DNA of 40,254 nt from Spirochaetaceae bacterium (GTDB lineage Bacteria > Spirochaetota > Spirochaetia > DSM-27196 > Alkalispirochaetaceae). Shown here one piece after another: positions 70-6,738 of the stretch (the stretch's first letter is position 1; the number at the start of each line of letters is the position of its first letter). Below the pieces are notes generated by a model that worked only from the letters and a program-made list of their open reading frames with translations, was not told the origin of the DNA and searched no databases. The translations under genes and the position numbers were made by a program. The stretch covers positions 1 to 40,254 of the forward strand of contig REEH01000113.1 in NCBI GenBank assembly GCA_007695175.1, given 5' to 3'.

Positions 70-101
70 TTATATCAGCGCCGCCCGTGGGTCACGCAGG
101 A

Positions 102-1001
102 TCACGCCTCGTTTTCCAGCCGGTTGAGAAACTTGTTGATCGCCGGTGGCGTGAGACCGAGGACACGCGCCGCCTGGCTCTGGTTTCCTTCCGAACGGCG
201 CAGAGCTTCCATGATCAGCTGTTTCCTGGCCGCCGCGACGGTGGGAAGCTGGGAGGGAAAAATCAGTTGTGTAAGGGGCGTGTGCCTGCTGTTCATTATT
301 TGCGATGCCACGGTGCTGAGAGCGTGGTTTTCCAGGGTAGCGCGAGCAGCCTCTTCCGAGAGACGCTGATCCTGCGTCCAGAATACCGCTTTGTGCATCA
401 CCATCTCCAGCTCCGCCACGTTGCCCGGGAAGGGATACTGCCCCAGGTAATTGAGGAAACCTGCGTCCACCCGCAGGCGCGGCATGCCGAGTGTTTCCGT
501 GGTGCGCCGGCAGAAGTATTCGATCAGCACCGGCAGGTCTCCCTCCCGTTCCCGCAGGGGCGGCAGGTGCACTTCACAGGCCGAGAGAAGATAGTACAGC
601 TCCGGCAGAAAATCGCCGGAACTGATGCGCACGGGAAGATCGGGAAGACTGGAAAAAACCAGGCGGGGCACGGTGGTATCGGAGGCGTCCCTGAGGGCGG
701 TAACGAGGTGTTCCTGCGTATCCCGGGGCAACCGGGCGACGTTCCGTATGTGGAGCGTTGCCTCCGGCGGCACCGATTGCAGCGACTGCCGGTTCACATC
801 CGGCGCCTCCCGCTCCAGAACGGGACCGGTGCCCCCGTTCTCCTCGGACAGAGCTCTCGCCAGAAGCCTCCGGCCGGTACCGGCCTCTCCGACGAGCAGA
901 AGCGGGCGTCCGCTGCCGCTGTAGTCCCGGGCGACGGCGTATGTCTGCAGAAGGCGAGAGTTCCTGGTTATCAGTCGCTCAAAACCTGATTCCGCCGGCA
1001 C
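102..1001 (-). CDS. Degenerate NtrC/Fis-type transcriptional regulator (AAA+ remnant plus Fis HTH)
   Basis: This 299-aa protein is collinear with the AAA+ and DNA-binding parts of sigma-54 activators. The Walker A region is GEAGTGRR (38-45), with Arg where Lys is needed. The Walker B region reads ATLHIRN (81-87), without the DE pair. Only about 36 residues separate the two, so the stretch that normally carries the sigma-54-contacting GAFTGA loop is missing. The later family motifs are present: LPPLRERE and YPFPGNVAELE. The C-terminus is a good Fis-type helix-turn-helix (GNQSQAARVLGL). Start is GTG at 1001, with GGGAGGAG upstream. I infer a DNA-binding protein that can neither hydrolyse ATP nor engage sigma-54. 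Its target is unknown. It has no receiver domain. Confidence 0.8.
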   Translation of the reverse strand: MPAESGFERLITRNSRLLQTYAVARDYSGSGRPLLLVGEAGTGRRLLARALSEENGGTGPVLEREAPDVNRQSLQSVPPEATLHIRNVARLPRDTQEHLVTALRDASDTTVPRLVFSSLPDLPVRISSGDFLPELYYLLSACEVHLPPLREREGDLPVLIEYFCRRTTETLGMPRLRVDAGFLNYLGQYPFPGNVAELEMVMHKAVFWTQDQRLSEEAARATLENHALSTVASQIMNSRHTPLTQLIFPSQLPTVAAARKQLIMEALRRSEGNQSQAARVLGLTPPAINKFLNRLENEA

Positions 1002-1030
1002 CGTCTTACTCCTCCCGTCGTATATTCACG

Positions 1031-1061
1031 TATAGAGAGGGTAATAATGCGAAAATATCAA
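1031..1061 (-). promoter_or_regulatory. Possible promoter of the degenerate NtrC-type gene
   Basis: The 190-bp gap between this gene and aspS contains an unusually AT-rich stretch. Read on the minus strand it offers TTGATA (1061-1056) and TCTATA (1036-1031), 19 bp apart. The spacing is long, so the assignment is weak. Confidence 0.3.
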
Positions 1062-1191
1062 TTAATGAATTTTGACAATCACATTGAATTTTTTCATAGC
1101 CCATACTCTAGAAAGAGCGCCTCCAGAGCTGTCCCGCTTGGCTGGAAAGGAGAATAATGGTGAAATGTGCGGGAACAGGGTCCGGGCCGGG

Positions 1192-2994
1192 CTACTCCGG
1201 TTTTCGCGGCGCCAGTTGCAGTCCCAGATCGGCCAGCTGCTGTTCGTCCACGGGCCCGGGGCTGCCGTCCATGGGATTGAGCCCGTTGGCGGTTTTGGGG
1301 AAGGCGATAACCTCCCGGATCGAGTCTTCTCCGGCCATTATCATCACGAGCCGGTCCAGGCCCGGGGCGATCCCCCCGTGGGGCGGAGCACCGTAACGGA
1401 ACGCCTCCAGGAGGAATCCGAAGCGGCGCTGCGCCTCATCCTCATCAAACCCGACGATACTGAAGATCCGCTTCTGCAGCGCCGGATCGTGGATCCTGAT
1501 CGAACCGGAGGCCAGCTCGAAACCGTTACAGACCAGGTCGTAGAGATCTCCCTTTACTGAAGCGGGATCACTTTCCAGAGTTTCCAGGTACTCTTCCCGG
1601 GGCATGGTGAACATGTGATGGGCCGCCTCCCAGCGCTTCTCCTCCTGATTGTACTCAAAGAGCGGGAAGTCCACGATCCAGGCGAAACGGAAGGTGCCCG
1701 GCTGCGCAAGCTCAAGGTCGCGACCGATGCGGGAACGGACGGCGCCCAGGGCGGTGGTGGCCGTCTTCCACTGGTCCGCCATGAAGAGGAGCAGGTCTCC
1801 CGGCTTTGCTCCCAGCGCCCGGGTGATCTCAATCGCCCGATCGGTGAAGAACTTGCCGATACCACCTTCCAGGAGGGGAGATGTTTCGGGAGTGCTACCG
1901 GTCCCGCCCGACACCTTGGTCCAGGCGAGTCCCTTTGCTCCATAGGTGCGGGCCACTTCCTCGAGCTCGCTGATCTGCTTTCGGCTGAAGTCGGCCCGGT
2001 CCGGCACGACCAGGACCTTCACCGCACCGCCCGCGGCAAGGGCGCCCTCGAAGACAGCAAAGCCGCTGCCCTCCACGAAGGGCGAGAAGTCCTGGATCTC
2101 GAGACTGTAGCGGAGGTCCGGCTTGTCGGAACCGAAGCGGTTCATCGCCTCCTCGTGGGATAGACGGGGAAAGGGTGTCTCCAGCTCCACACCGAGACCG
2201 CGACGGAAGACGTGGGTCATCATACCCTCCACCACGGCGAAGACATCTTCCCGCCCGACAAAGCTCATCTCCAGGTCGATCTGCGTGTGTTCCAGCTGCC
2301 GGTCTCCCCGGGCGTCCTCGTCCCGGAAGCAGTGGGCGATCTGGAAGTACCGGTCAAAACCGCTCACCATGAGGATCTGCTTGTACAGCTGCGGACTCTG
2401 GGGCATCGCGTAGAACTGTCCCGGGTGGAGACGGGACGGTACGAGGAAGTCCCGTGCACCTTCCGGTGTTGACTTGATCATGGTGGGCGTCTCGATTTCG
2501 ATAAAATCGAGCGTGGTGAGGTGTTCCCGAACGGCCTGCATGACGGTGTTCCGCAGAGCGATCTTTCGCTGCATCGCAAAGGTGCGCAGATCCAGATAAC
2601 GATACCTGAGTCGAACGTCGTCGCGTGCGTCCGACCGCTCATCGATCATGAACGGCAGGGGTTCGCTCGTGCTTAGGATCTCCACATGGCGGGCAGCCAC
2701 CTCGATGCCACCGGTGGGCATCGCCTCATTGCGCATTCCCTCGGGGCGCTCCCGAACGACCCCTTCCAGGGCAAGGCAGTATTCCATGCGCAGGGTGGGG
2801 GCCAGTTCACGCAGTTCCCGGGGCGCGTCGTCATCGATCACGACCTGCGTCACGCCATAGCGGTCCCGCAGGTTGATAAAGTGTACTCCTCCATGATCGC
2901 GAAGGCGGTGAATCCAGCCGTTGAGGGTTACCGTCCGTCCGGCGTCGGCAGCGCGCAGGGCGCCACAGGTGTGGGTACGCTTCATCTGTTCCAT
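1192..2994 (-). CDS. aspS: Aspartyl-tRNA synthetase, bacterial type
   Basis: This 600-aa class II aminoacyl-tRNA synthetase matches the usual bacterial AspRS length, including the GAD insert domain. Order: N-terminal OB-fold anticodon-binding domain (about 1-105), motif 2 (FRDEDARGDRQLEHTQID), the bacterial insertion, and motif 3 (GGIAPGLDRLVMIMAG) near the C-terminus. It charges tRNA-Asp in the cytosol. His34 and Gly86 occupy the positions reported as His31/Gly82 in non-discriminating AspRS enzymes, so it may also charge tRNA-Asn. No Shine-Dalgarno precedes the ATG. A -10-like TACAGT (3007-3002) ends 7 nt before it, which suggests a leaderless start. The next ATG, at codon 4, is an alternative. 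pncA lies 44 bp upstream on the same strand. Confidence 0.97.
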   Translation of the reverse strand: MEQMKRTHTCGALRAADAGRTVTLNGWIHRLRDHGGVHFINLRDRYGVTQVVIDDDAPRELRELAPTLRMEYCLALEGVVRERPEGMRNEAMPTGGIEVAARHVEILSTSEPLPFMIDERSDARDDVRLRYRYLDLRTFAMQRKIALRNTVMQAVREHLTTLDFIEIETPTMIKSTPEGARDFLVPSRLHPGQFYAMPQSPQLYKQILMVSGFDRYFQIAHCFRDEDARGDRQLEHTQIDLEMSFVGREDVFAVVEGMMTHVFRRGLGVELETPFPRLSHEEAMNRFGSDKPDLRYSLEIQDFSPFVEGSGFAVFEGALAAGGAVKVLVVPDRADFSRKQISELEEVARTYGAKGLAWTKVSGGTGSTPETSPLLEGGIGKFFTDRAIEITRALGAKPGDLLLFMADQWKTATTALGAVRSRIGRDLELAQPGTFRFAWIVDFPLFEYNQEEKRWEAAHHMFTMPREEYLETLESDPASVKGDLYDLVCNGFELASGSIRIHDPALQKRIFSIVGFDEDEAQRRFGFLLEAFRYGAPPHGGIAPGLDRLVMIMAGEDSIREVIAFPKTANGLNPMDGSPGPVDEQQLADLGLQLAPRKPE

Positions 2995-3038
2995 GGGAGC
3001 GACTGTACTACGCGGAAGGGTACTGTTTCCAGCTCTGT

Positions 3039-3653
3039 CTACCGCAAATCCCGGCTCCCGAGGATGACTCCTCCGGCGGCGGCGATTTCTTCAAGGGCAT
3101 CGTCCACGTCATGGGCGCTCAGGTTGACCCCGCGGCAGGCATCGCGCACCAGGGTCACTTCGAATCCGAGATGAAGTGCGTCCAGGGCGGTGAATTTCAC
3201 GCAGTAGTCCGTGGCGAGTCCACACACCACCACGTGCTCGACGGAACGATCCCGGAGATATTGTTCCAGACCGGTCGCGTGGCGGCGGTCATTGTCGAAG
3301 AATCCGGAGTAGCTGTCGATCTCGCGATCGAGTCCTTTGCGGATCAGCCGGTTGAAGAAGGAGACGTCCAGGGCGGAGGCAAAGGATGCGCCCGGCGTAC
3401 CCTGCACGCAGTGGTCGGGCCAGAGCACTTGCGGCAGGCCGTGCAGGTCGATCACCTCCCCCGGTGAACGCCCGGGATGACGGCCGGCGAAGCTCTCGTG
3501 ATCCGCCGGGTGCCAGTCCTGCGTGGCCACCACGAGATCAAAGGCGGGCATCAATCCGTTGATGATCGGTACAACCTGGTCTCCTTCCGGGACGGCCAGG
3601 GAACCGCCGGGAAGGAAATCGTTCTGTACGTCTACTGGAATCAGCGCTTTCAT
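3039..3653 (-). CDS. pncA: Nicotinamidase
   Basis: This 204-aa isochorismatase-fold hydrolase converts nicotinamide to nicotinate for NAD salvage. The catalytic triad is complete: Asp8 (PVDVQNDF), Lys106 (IRKG) and Cys151 (GLATDYC). The metal-binding residues are Asp46, His48 (TQDWHP) and His81 (WPDHCVQGTPGA). The YSGFFDN stretch is typical of E. coli-type PncA. The ATG at 3653 begins the family's usual N-terminus. The frame stays open far upstream, but that part is antisense-like arginine/proline-rich sequence inside the neighbour and was rejected. A TACTAT box (3668-3663) ends 9 nt before the ATG and no clear ribosome site is visible. It lies 44 bp ahead of aspS, possibly co-transcribed. 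Confidence 0.96.
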   Translation of the reverse strand: MKALIPVDVQNDFLPGGSLAVPEGDQVVPIINGLMPAFDLVVATQDWHPADHESFAGRHPGRSPGEVIDLHGLPQVLWPDHCVQGTPGASFASALDVSFFNRLIRKGLDREIDSYSGFFDNDRRHATGLEQYLRDRSVEHVVVCGLATDYCVKFTALDALHLGFEVTLVRDACRGVNLSAHDVDDALEEIAAAGGVILGSRDLR

Positions 3654-3708
3654 GAGTACAGCATAGTAACGAATCCCCCTGTTCACAACCCCGGGCCGCG
3701 GAGAACCG

Positions 3709-4923
3709 TCACACACCCTTGTACGGTACCGCCGCGTCGAGAAGCGCGATCCGGCGGCGCTCCATCGCGTTGATCCGTCCGATATTCGCCCGGAGAATGG
3801 CCTCCATCCTGGGGTCAAAGAAGCGGTGCATGCTCGTAACGGGCAGGGAGCGGAAGCCGCGGCGCACCTTGTGTTCCGATCCCATGCCGGGATCAAAGGT
3901 CCGGATGCCTTCCCGGATCGCCCACTCCATGGGTGTGTAGTAGCACAGTTCGAAATGAAGGTTATTTGCCTGGATACGCGTTCCCCAGTAGCGGCCGAGC
4001 AGATGATCCCCTTTCCGCACCAGCATGGCCAGCGCCGGCGGATCCCCGATGGAGCCTGTTTCTCCGGCCCACCTCGTTTCTCCGGCGGGAAACGCCGCGG
4101 CAAACCAGAGGTGGCGCCGTACCTCCCGGGGCATGGTAGTGAAGAAGCGATCCGTAAGAAAACGGGCCGCCCATGGTCCGAACTGCTCGTTGGTCTTCCC
4201 GTAGTAACGGGCCATGCGCTGGAAGAGGCTGTCCGGCGCGTCCAGTCCGGAGATGATTCTCGTGCTCAACCCCTGGGCGGGGATGGAAGCGCGCTCGCGG
4301 CGGATGTTGCGGCGCTGCCCCTTGCGGAAGCGCCCCAGGTAGTCCTCAAAGCTGCGGTACTCCTCGTTGAACCACTGGTATCCGTGATGCTCCCACGGTA
4401 CAAGCCCCTGTTCCTCCAGCCGTTTTCGCCAGGCGGGAAGAACGTAGTTGAACTGCAGCACCGGTATGGCCTCGTCATGGCAGTACCGGTGGATCTCCCC
4501 CATCAGAAGGGGACACAGTTCATCCTCCCGGCCCGGCTCCACCAGAATCGCGTAGGCCGTGGAGGGCGTGGCGGGACTCATTCCCACGAGCTTGGGGTAA
4601 TAGGGCGCACCTATCTGATCCGCCACCTCGGCGAAGGCGAAGTCAAAGACGAACTCACCCCAGCTGTTATCGCGCAGATAGAGGGGTACGGCCCCGACGA
4701 TACGGCCTTCTTCATGCAGGGTGAGGTGCCGGGGAATCCAGCCCGTTTCCGCGGTGGTGCTCCCGCTCCGCTCAAGGTGGTGCAGCCACTCGTGGTTGAG
4801 AAGCGGCGTGGGCCCGGCTCGTTCCGCCAGGTGGTTCCACTGCGCTGCGTCGATTGTCGTCGCCGAATCGTGCCACCGGTACTCCACACCGTGAAGGTAC
4901 TGCGCCCTCAGCCCGGAGGCCAC
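3709..4923 (-). CDS. COG3146/DUF482 GNAT-fold acyltransferase-like protein ('peptidogalycan biosynthesis' family)
   Basis: This 404-aa protein resembles the COG3146/DUF482 family, a GNAT-like fold related to FemAB aminoacyl/acyltransferases. Supporting features are a PYYPKLVG-type segment, the basic FRKGQRRNIRRER helix in mid-protein, LGRYWG, and the C-terminal FDPGMGSEHKVRRGF followed by an SMHRF motif. The family's substrate is not established and the 'peptidogalycan' name is historical. Start is GTG at 4923, overlapping the end of the HIT gene by 16 nt, which suggests translational coupling. A second in-frame GTG at 4887 would avoid the overlap. No signal peptide is seen, so it is probably cytosolic. 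Confidence 0.85.
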   Translation of the reverse strand: MASGLRAQYLHGVEYRWHDSATTIDAAQWNHLAERAGPTPLLNHEWLHHLERSGSTTAETGWIPRHLTLHEEGRIVGAVPLYLRDNSWGEFVFDFAFAEVADQIGAPYYPKLVGMSPATPSTAYAILVEPGREDELCPLLMGEIHRYCHDEAIPVLQFNYVLPAWRKRLEEQGLVPWEHHGYQWFNEEYRSFEDYLGRFRKGQRRNIRRERASIPAQGLSTRIISGLDAPDSLFQRMARYYGKTNEQFGPWAARFLTDRFFTTMPREVRRHLWFAAAFPAGETRWAGETGSIGDPPALAMLVRKGDHLLGRYWGTRIQANNLHFELCYYTPMEWAIREGIRTFDPGMGSEHKVRRGFRSLPVTSMHRFFDPRMEAILRANIGRINAMERRRIALLDAAVPYKGV

Positions 4924-5333: not shown

Positions 5334-6248
5334 CTATTGGCCCGGCAGCGGGGGCTGGGGCACCCGGATTTCTACTGTGGTACCCCCTTCAGGGCCCTCC
5401 GTTGCGGAGGTGATCCACATGCGTCCGCCCAGGGTGCGCGTGACCAGGTGCGCCTTGGTGAGACCGAAACCGCCGCCTCTTGTTTCCGAGGGTGCCGTGT
5501 TGCTCCCCCTCTCGCCGAAGCGCACAACCCGCGGGATCTCCTCCGGATGGATGCCCCGTCCATTGTCCCGGACCGTCAGTATCAGCTCCCGGGCCGTCTC
5601 CTCCAGACGGGCCACAATGCGGCCGCCCGGCTCGGTGTATTTTCGCGCGTTTGCCGTGAGGTCCCGCAGCACATCCTGGAGAACAAGGGGCATATGGATT
5701 GTTTCTCCGTCGGGTGATGCAAGCTCGAGTATGATGCGGTATACCGGAACCGCCTCGTCCCGGGGGGGCTTTGTCCGGGGCGTCTCCTCCCGGAAGGTGA
5801 TCCTGTAGCGGTCTCGGGCCAGTTCACTTATCACGGTGAAAACAAGCTCGAAGCTGTGGCGAAGGCGGGCGAAGCTCATCCTCACCCAGCAGTCACCCTG
5901 GCTCTGGCGTGCGATCATCTCCTCGATACGCATGTGAGCCACCTCAAGAATTTTCATTATCTGCGTCGCTTCGGGAGCGTGCTCCTCGAGATTCGCCTGC
6001 AGAAGCAGTCTCATTTCGTTGAGATGCTGCATCAACGGGAGTTGAGCCTCTTCTTCCCGGAAGGCGTCGATAAGATCGAGCAGCTGTTGCCGGGCGGAAC
6101 GAAAAAGGTCCGGCTTCTCCAGCTCCCCTTCGAGTCTTTCCAGCTCGATCACCAGTACGTTTATTATGTTTACGAAACTGTGATACCCGACCAGGCGCAG
6201 CTGCGGGGGATCGAGCTGGATATCACCGGTTATTTCCGTCCGTTTCAT
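5334..6248 (-). CDS. GHKL/HATPase histidine-kinase-like protein without a clear sensor domain
   Basis: This 304-aa protein has a good C-terminal HATPase_c domain: N-box with Asn200 (DLTANARKY), G1 box DNGRGI (228-233) and G2 box GGGFGLTKAH (258-267). The preceding 180 residues are helical. The only candidate phospho-acceptor is His23 in GYHSFVNIIN, which does not match a standard H-E/D box. No transmembrane segment is visible. I infer a cytosolic histidine kinase or a GHKL regulatory ATPase; a cognate response regulator is not present. The ATG at 6248 has GGGAGG 8 nt upstream. An earlier in-frame ATG (6305) lacks this and overlaps the zinc-ribbon gene further. The chosen start still overlaps that gene by 26 nt, consistent with an operon. 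Confidence 0.85.
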   Translation of the reverse strand: MKRTEITGDIQLDPPQLRLVGYHSFVNIINVLVIELERLEGELEKPDLFRSARQQLLDLIDAFREEEAQLPLMQHLNEMRLLLQANLEEHAPEATQIMKILEVAHMRIEEMIARQSQGDCWVRMSFARLRHSFELVFTVISELARDRYRITFREETPRTKPPRDEAVPVYRIILELASPDGETIHMPLVLQDVLRDLTANARKYTEPGGRIVARLEETARELILTVRDNGRGIHPEEIPRVVRFGERGSNTAPSETRGGGFGLTKAHLVTRTLGGRMWITSATEGPEGGTTVEIRVPQPPLPGQ

Positions 6249-6738
6249 TTCGTTGGCCTCCCTGGCCTCTTCGGCCTCCTCGACATTCGGTGCAACCCAG
6301 AACATGAACGTGCTTGCGTGTCTCCCGCGTGAACATCCGGGCGATCACGTACCCCTCCGAGGGAATGACACCCTTGCAGACGGGGCAGATCCGCGGGGCC
6401 CGCGTCCCGAGGGGAGCGACCGACCCTGGCCGGCAGTGGGGACACCCGAACATGTGCACCAGCGCCTCCCGGGGCTGATCCCGCCTGCCGGGCGGATCCC
6501 CGGAAAAGACGATGGTATGGACCCGTTCTCCCCGATTGAGAAGCGTCCCGCAGAGTGGACAGGGACGCATCATGTGCAACCCCTCCCTGCTGCGATCCGC
6601 CATGTAGTTGGCGAGGTTGCTGTAATCGGTGCGGCGCAGGCGTACAAGGCTGTAAACAAGTGCCGTAATCAGTATGACCAGCAGTACAAGCAGCGTTGCC
6701 TGAATGACCTGCACCTCCCCTTCAGAGTACACTACCAT
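6223..6738 (-). CDS. Membrane-anchored protein with duplicated zinc-ribbon modules
   Basis: This 171-aa protein has one N-terminal transmembrane helix (about 12-32). A cytosolic part follows with four CxxC knuckles: C60/C63, C99/C102, C118/C121 and C149/C152. They form two similar modules, each ending in a VH-x-x-GC-x-x-C pattern (VHMFGCPHC and VHVLGCTEC). This looks like an internal duplication of a two-knuckle zinc ribbon. I do not recognise a named family. It is first in a probable pair with the GHKL ATPase, so a signalling or membrane-partner role is possible but unproven. Its ATG is 3 bp from the divergent rsmI ATG and no Shine-Dalgarno precedes it. A TATAAA (6755-6750) inside rsmI could be its -10. 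Confidence 0.75.
   Translation of the reverse strand: MVVYSEGEVQVIQATLLVLLVILITALVYSLVRLRRTDYSNLANYMADRSREGLHMMRPCPLCGTLLNRGERVHTIVFSGDPPGRRDQPREALVHMFGCPHCRPGSVAPLGTRAPRICPVCKGVIPSEGYVIARMFTRETRKHVHVLGCTECRGGRRGQGGQRNETDGNNR

Follow-up and report, generated by a model that had tools for sequence, protein, structure and literature searches.

Stand-alone bacterial enhancer-binding proteins (bEBPs) of the PspF and HrpR/HrpS class are made only of an AAA+ domain and a Fis helix-turn-helix; they have no sensor domain, hydrolyse ATP and contact sigma-54. To our knowledge, a bEBP deprived of the Walker residues, of GAFTGA and of the arginine fingers cannot remodel the sigma-54 polymerase. A second group, namely TyrR, DhaR, HupR, VpsR and the NtrC proteins of R. 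capsulatus and Caulobacter, has lost the sigma-54 loop and kept the C-terminal Fis helix-turn-helix, and its members carry an N-terminal regulatory domain. The GAFTGA-less TyrR, DhaR and HupR regulate sigma-70 promoters (PMC3162934). R. capsulatus NtrC and VpsR, both without the sigma-54 loop, also act at sigma-70 promoters: VpsR needs no ATP, R. capsulatus NtrC requires ATP binding and Caulobacter NtrC requires its Walker residues (PMC10274813).

The stretch of DNA analysed here, called the window hereafter, comprises the 40,254 nucleotides of contig REEH01000113.1 from a Spirochaetaceae bacterium (assembly GCA_007695175.1). Close to its beginning lies a minus-strand gene whose PspF-like product consists of an AAA+ domain followed by a Fis helix-turn-helix, without N-terminal sensor domain, but retains none of the motifs by which the PspF and HrpR/HrpS class hydrolyses ATP and contacts sigma-54. 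The protein resembles the TyrR, HupR, NtrC and VpsR group in having lost the loop and kept the helix-turn-helix; it differs from that group in that Walker A, Walker B, the sensors and the fingers are all gone, and in the lack of a sensor domain.

The gene and its surroundings

The gene and the elements upstream of it are as follows.

102..1001, minus strand: degenerate bEBP gene, 299 aa, GTG start (open reading frame list and Pfam)
1007..1014, minus strand: ribosome-binding site GGGAGGAG (AGGAG), six bases before the GTG
1002..1191, minus strand: 190-base gap separating the gene from aspS, AT-rich in the half next to the gene
1192..2994, minus strand: aspS, the upstream neighbour, syntenic in the related genome G001

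According to the original prediction, the Fis helix-turn-helix and the AAA+ outline were kept in an open frame preceded by a good ribosome site, which the Pfam matches, the frame and the AGGAG motif bear out. An AAA+ domain of the sigma-54 interaction family with its lid is present, above cut-off in Pfam (Sigma54_activ_2, 1.9e-18; AAA_lid_14, 1.3e-14) and in agreement with the predicted fold, and so is the C-terminal Fis-type helix-turn-helix typical of bEBPs (HTH_8, 1.1e-8). The main model, Sigma54_activat, gave 1.1e-5 only, and the many NCBIfam bEBP models that match the protein were every one far under cut-off. The frame is uninterrupted (about eight stops are expected in a random sequence of equal composition) and the GC fractions at codon positions 1, 2 and 3 (0.69, 0.47 and 0.74) draw a coding-type profile. 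A long frame is also open on the other strand (87-989, plus strand); homology is found on the minus strand only, and this antisense frame is probably a by-product of GC-rich codons.

The gap upstream of the gene likely holds its own promoter; neither a sigma-70 nor a sigma-54 consensus match was found in it. Sigma-54 promoters were discarded over the whole window, the matches being fewer than expected by chance. A candidate operator, a 12-base AT-rich word found upstream of the gene and of its relative in genome G003 (shuffle maximum 10), was too weak to be retained: it stands at differing distances in the two genomes and is absent from the G001 upstream region. On the other side, the window starts 101 bases past the 3' end of the gene: positions 1-101 carry short GC-rich repeats (cgggccgcccccccgga) at the end of the contig, and the G001 contig, SKHA01000356, likewise ends just after its copy. 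Elsewhere in the window, a minus-strand gene (5337-6305) encodes a histidine-kinase-type ATPase domain (HATPase_c), with no recognised HisKA or receiver domain.

Motifs lost and motifs kept

The motifs of the window protein, read by alignment against relatives, are listed below.

870..890, minus strand: Walker A region, residues 38-44, GEAGTGR (GEAGTGRR with the next residue), Lys replaced by Arg44
762..869, minus strand: Walker A-B interval, residues 45-80, about 22 residues shorter, GAFTGA sigma-54 loop deleted
741..761, minus strand: Walker B, residues 81-87, ATLHIRN, DE replaced by R86 and N87
636..653, minus strand: sensor I stretch, residues 117-122, SSLPDL where ATNxDL is expected, Asn missing
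582..611, minus strand: arginine-finger segment, residues 131-140, FLPELYYLLS, with Leu in place of both Arg (L132, L138)
408..428, minus strand: sensor II stretch, residues 192-198, PGNVAEL where PGNVREL is expected, Arg replaced by Ala196
105..254, minus strand: Fis-type helix-turn-helix, residues 250-299, the best-conserved segment, recognition helix TPPAINKFL

The losses first claimed, i.e. those of the Walker A Lys, the Walker B DE, GAFTGA and the arginine fingers, are thus all real, and two more come in addition, the sensor I Asn and the sensor II Arg. The distance from the Walker A Lys/Arg to the Walker B strand is 38 residues, versus 60 in an intact relative. With the first four motifs gone, the protein no longer has the motor and contact motifs of a functional bEBP; by its bEBP ancestry, its lost loop and its retained helix-turn-helix, it fits among the sigma-54-independent relatives of the TyrR, HupR and VpsR type. 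The AAA+ domain and the lid are nevertheless predicted to fold despite the loss of the catalytic residues: in a structure model built from 42 sequences, mostly intact bEBPs, which dominate the alignment, the AAA+ core and lid are retained with a mean pLDDT of 86 (below 50 for residues 232-247). The model matches the structures of ZraR, NtrC1, NtrX, PspF and VpsR.

Relatives and order of the losses

The genome of the window (G000) was compared with related genomes, among them G001, G002, G003, G005, G006 and G013. Close relatives of the gene were found in only two of the 61 related genomes, and a scan of GTDB genome contigs gave the same two: Spirochaeta sp. CSBr16_18 (G001, locus L045) and an uncultured Spirochaeta (G003, CAJWEZ010000017, locus L044, also L002). 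Neither a search of 46 genomes of the order nor that GTDB scan gave any further ortholog. All three genes have the recognition helix TPxAxNK[FY] in common.

The G001 gene sits, like the window gene, immediately downstream of aspS, and these two are the only degenerate copies known. It has no GAFTGA loop (the same 22-23-residue deletion), no Walker B (SQ for DE) and neither of the fingers, so that an ortholog at the same locus shares losses with the window gene, as the original prediction proposed to verify; the G001 protein still has the Walker A Lys and the sensor II Arg. The two copies are 37% identical, versus 57-86% for control bEBP orthologs from the same two genomes. The G003 gene has a like domain layout and recognition helix (TPAAVNKFL), but differs by its intact catalytic motifs and by its locus: Walker A, Walker B, GAYTGA and both arginine fingers are there, the sensor I Asn is a Ser, and the neighbours are Wza/Wzz-like genes instead of aspS. 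Intact Walker motifs in orthologs had been put forward as the mark of a decaying pseudogene; the G003 gene does have them, but it falls outside the degenerate pair and lies elsewhere in its genome. No such gene was found in the regions downstream of aspS in G002, G003, G005 and G006.

The gene tree unites the window gene and the G001 gene in a clade (100/99) and places the G003 gene as their sister (100/95). The topology did not change when the tree was built on the C-terminal half minus the finger segment, i.e. with the lost-motif columns removed (97/93 and 100/99). Independent losses, with the window gene grouped with the G003 gene instead, were rejected (p-AU 0.003). In the aspS tree, G003 is outermost, followed by G001, then by (G000, G002) with (G005, G006); the forks placing G001 and G000 have bootstrap values of 90-94. 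Gene tree and species tree concur, and vertical descent therefore fits. In agreement with it, the trees suggest that the catalytic loss predates the G001/G000 split and that G002 and the G005/G006 lineage lost the gene later; horizontal transfer may still be envisaged as an alternative. After the split the window gene eroded further, since more motifs are gone than in G001. With G003 as the intact state and G001 as the intermediate one, the order of loss starts with the GAFTGA loop, Walker B and the arginine fingers and ends with the Walker A Lys and the sensor II Arg.

Constraint after the losses

The window and G001 genes differ at 0.50, 0.35 and 0.68 of codon positions 1, 2 and 3 (p 1.5e-13), meaning that, since the split, about two changes have occurred at position 3 for each one at position 2; for the helix-turn-helix alone the values are 0.32, 0.23 and 0.57. 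This constraint acted after the motif losses because the losses are shared by both genes. Identity between the two is highest in the helix-turn-helix (57%) and lowest in the loop/Walker B stretch and in the linker (16% each). In ordinary bEBP ortholog pairs from the same genomes, the Walker A-Walker B region is usually at least as conserved as the helix-turn-helix. The constraint has thus shifted away from the motor and towards the part that binds DNA, which agrees with the expectation of purifying selection on the helix-turn-helix: it is the most constrained part of the protein. Codon-model dN/dS values (0.018-0.064) were set aside, the synonymous sites being saturated and one ratio also spanning the G003 lineage. 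With frames open in two lineages and such a codon-position bias, the window gene is not a fresh pseudogene.

The original prediction also proposed to look for rpoN. It is intact in G000 (467 aa) and was found in 8/8 relatives checked; a TGA flagged in its match turned out to be its own stop codon. The motif loss does not, therefore, merely follow the loss of sigma-54. G000 also encodes nine canonical intact bEBPs, and in none of them was the recognition helix of the window protein seen.

Possible modes of action

We favour, with moderate confidence and from the sequence, a DNA-binding regulator independent of ATP and sigma-54, whose ancestor was a PspF-like sigma-54 activator of the stand-alone type. 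ATP hydrolysis and sigma-54 contact would have been lost; the Fis helix-turn-helix would most likely bind the ancestor's class of operator, with the folded AAA+ body as a probable oligomerisation scaffold, and the protein would most likely act at sigma-70 promoters, by blocking the polymerase or by contacting it directly. What is established directly is the starting point: the motif losses, the common ancestry with the G001 copy, the retention under constraint, the helix-turn-helix conservation and the intact rpoN. From there, sigma-70 regulation appears to be the most economical reading, because GAFTGA-less relatives regulate sigma-70 promoters. The original prediction was of an activator repurposed as a repressor or nucleoid factor. 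Its first part holds, in that the shared losses, the constraint on the helix-turn-helix and the intact rpoN speak for a gene retained with a changed function; repression and sigma-70 activation are both candidate outcomes, and nothing was found in favour of a nucleoid factor.

It is rather unlikely that the protein is instead a pseudo-ATPase partner, which would tune a sigma-54 promoter by forming hetero-oligomers, or competing for sites, with an intact bEBP. The predicted retention of the AAA+ fold and lid would suit such a role, two related genomes pair an intact bEBP gene with an adjacent HTH-less degenerate one (Walker A Lys to Arg), and the window and G001 contigs, both ending just past the gene, leave room for a downstream partner. 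However, aspS, rather than a bEBP gene, is the upstream neighbour, and the protein has neither of the arginine fingers, whose action is across subunits. In addition, its recognition helix was not seen in any of the nine intact G000 paralogs, which leaves simple site competition without a partner.

The pairs, seen in 2/297 genomes of the taxonomic class, are arranged as follows. At L170 (G002:C83), the intact bEBP gene (100-1647) and the degenerate one (1644-2744) overlap by 4 bases, start on stop (ATGA); at L172 (G013:C75), the intact gene (2871-4370) is directly followed by the degenerate one (1771-2985). Both degenerate products have a receiver-like N-terminus, Arg for the Walker A Lys, no GAFTGA and no arginine fingers. 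A common origin with the window-type genes was not rejected (p-AU 0.199), a weak result owing to long branches. It is doubtful that all these genes belong to one recurring class of pseudo-ATPase bEBPs in the spirochaete order, defined by the Walker A Lys to Arg change and the lack of GAFTGA and fingers. If they did, some members would be HTH-less and coupled to an intact bEBP gene and others, like the window gene, would keep the DNA-binding part; they would regulate without ATP or serve as subunits in bEBP rings.

A decaying gene, its function lost in the ancestor and its frame now eroding, is a still less probable explanation. The gene is dispensable, since both G002 and the G005/G006 lineage have lost it; all motifs are lost, stepwise and further in G000 than in G001, and evolution is several times faster here than in the ordinary paralogs. 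Such fast evolution (the 37% versus 57-86% identity given above) counts against a functional regulator and also suits a gene on its way out. Against decay, both frames have stayed intact through a very long divergence following the shared loss, with strong codon-position bias, a coding-type GC profile, a good ribosome site and a preserved helix-turn-helix. Finally, a dead nucleotide pocket turned into a ligand sensor that sets DNA binding (one responding to c-di-GMP, for example, in the manner of VpsR and FleQ) is very improbable: these two c-di-GMP-binding relatives are structural neighbours of the model and Arg49, after Walker A, may match the Arg position used for c-di-GMP in VfmH (PMC10714721), but bEBPs commonly have an Arg there, and the window protein has lost the sensor II Arg.

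To conclude, conversions of this type are known elsewhere, and the window gene stands out among them by its unusual completeness without being of a new kind: here a stand-alone sigma-54 activator has lost all the parts of its motor and kept its fold and its DNA-binding tip. The order of loss across the G003, G001 and window genes is open to bench tests. If annotated by domain alone, such genes would be labelled as sigma-54 activators.
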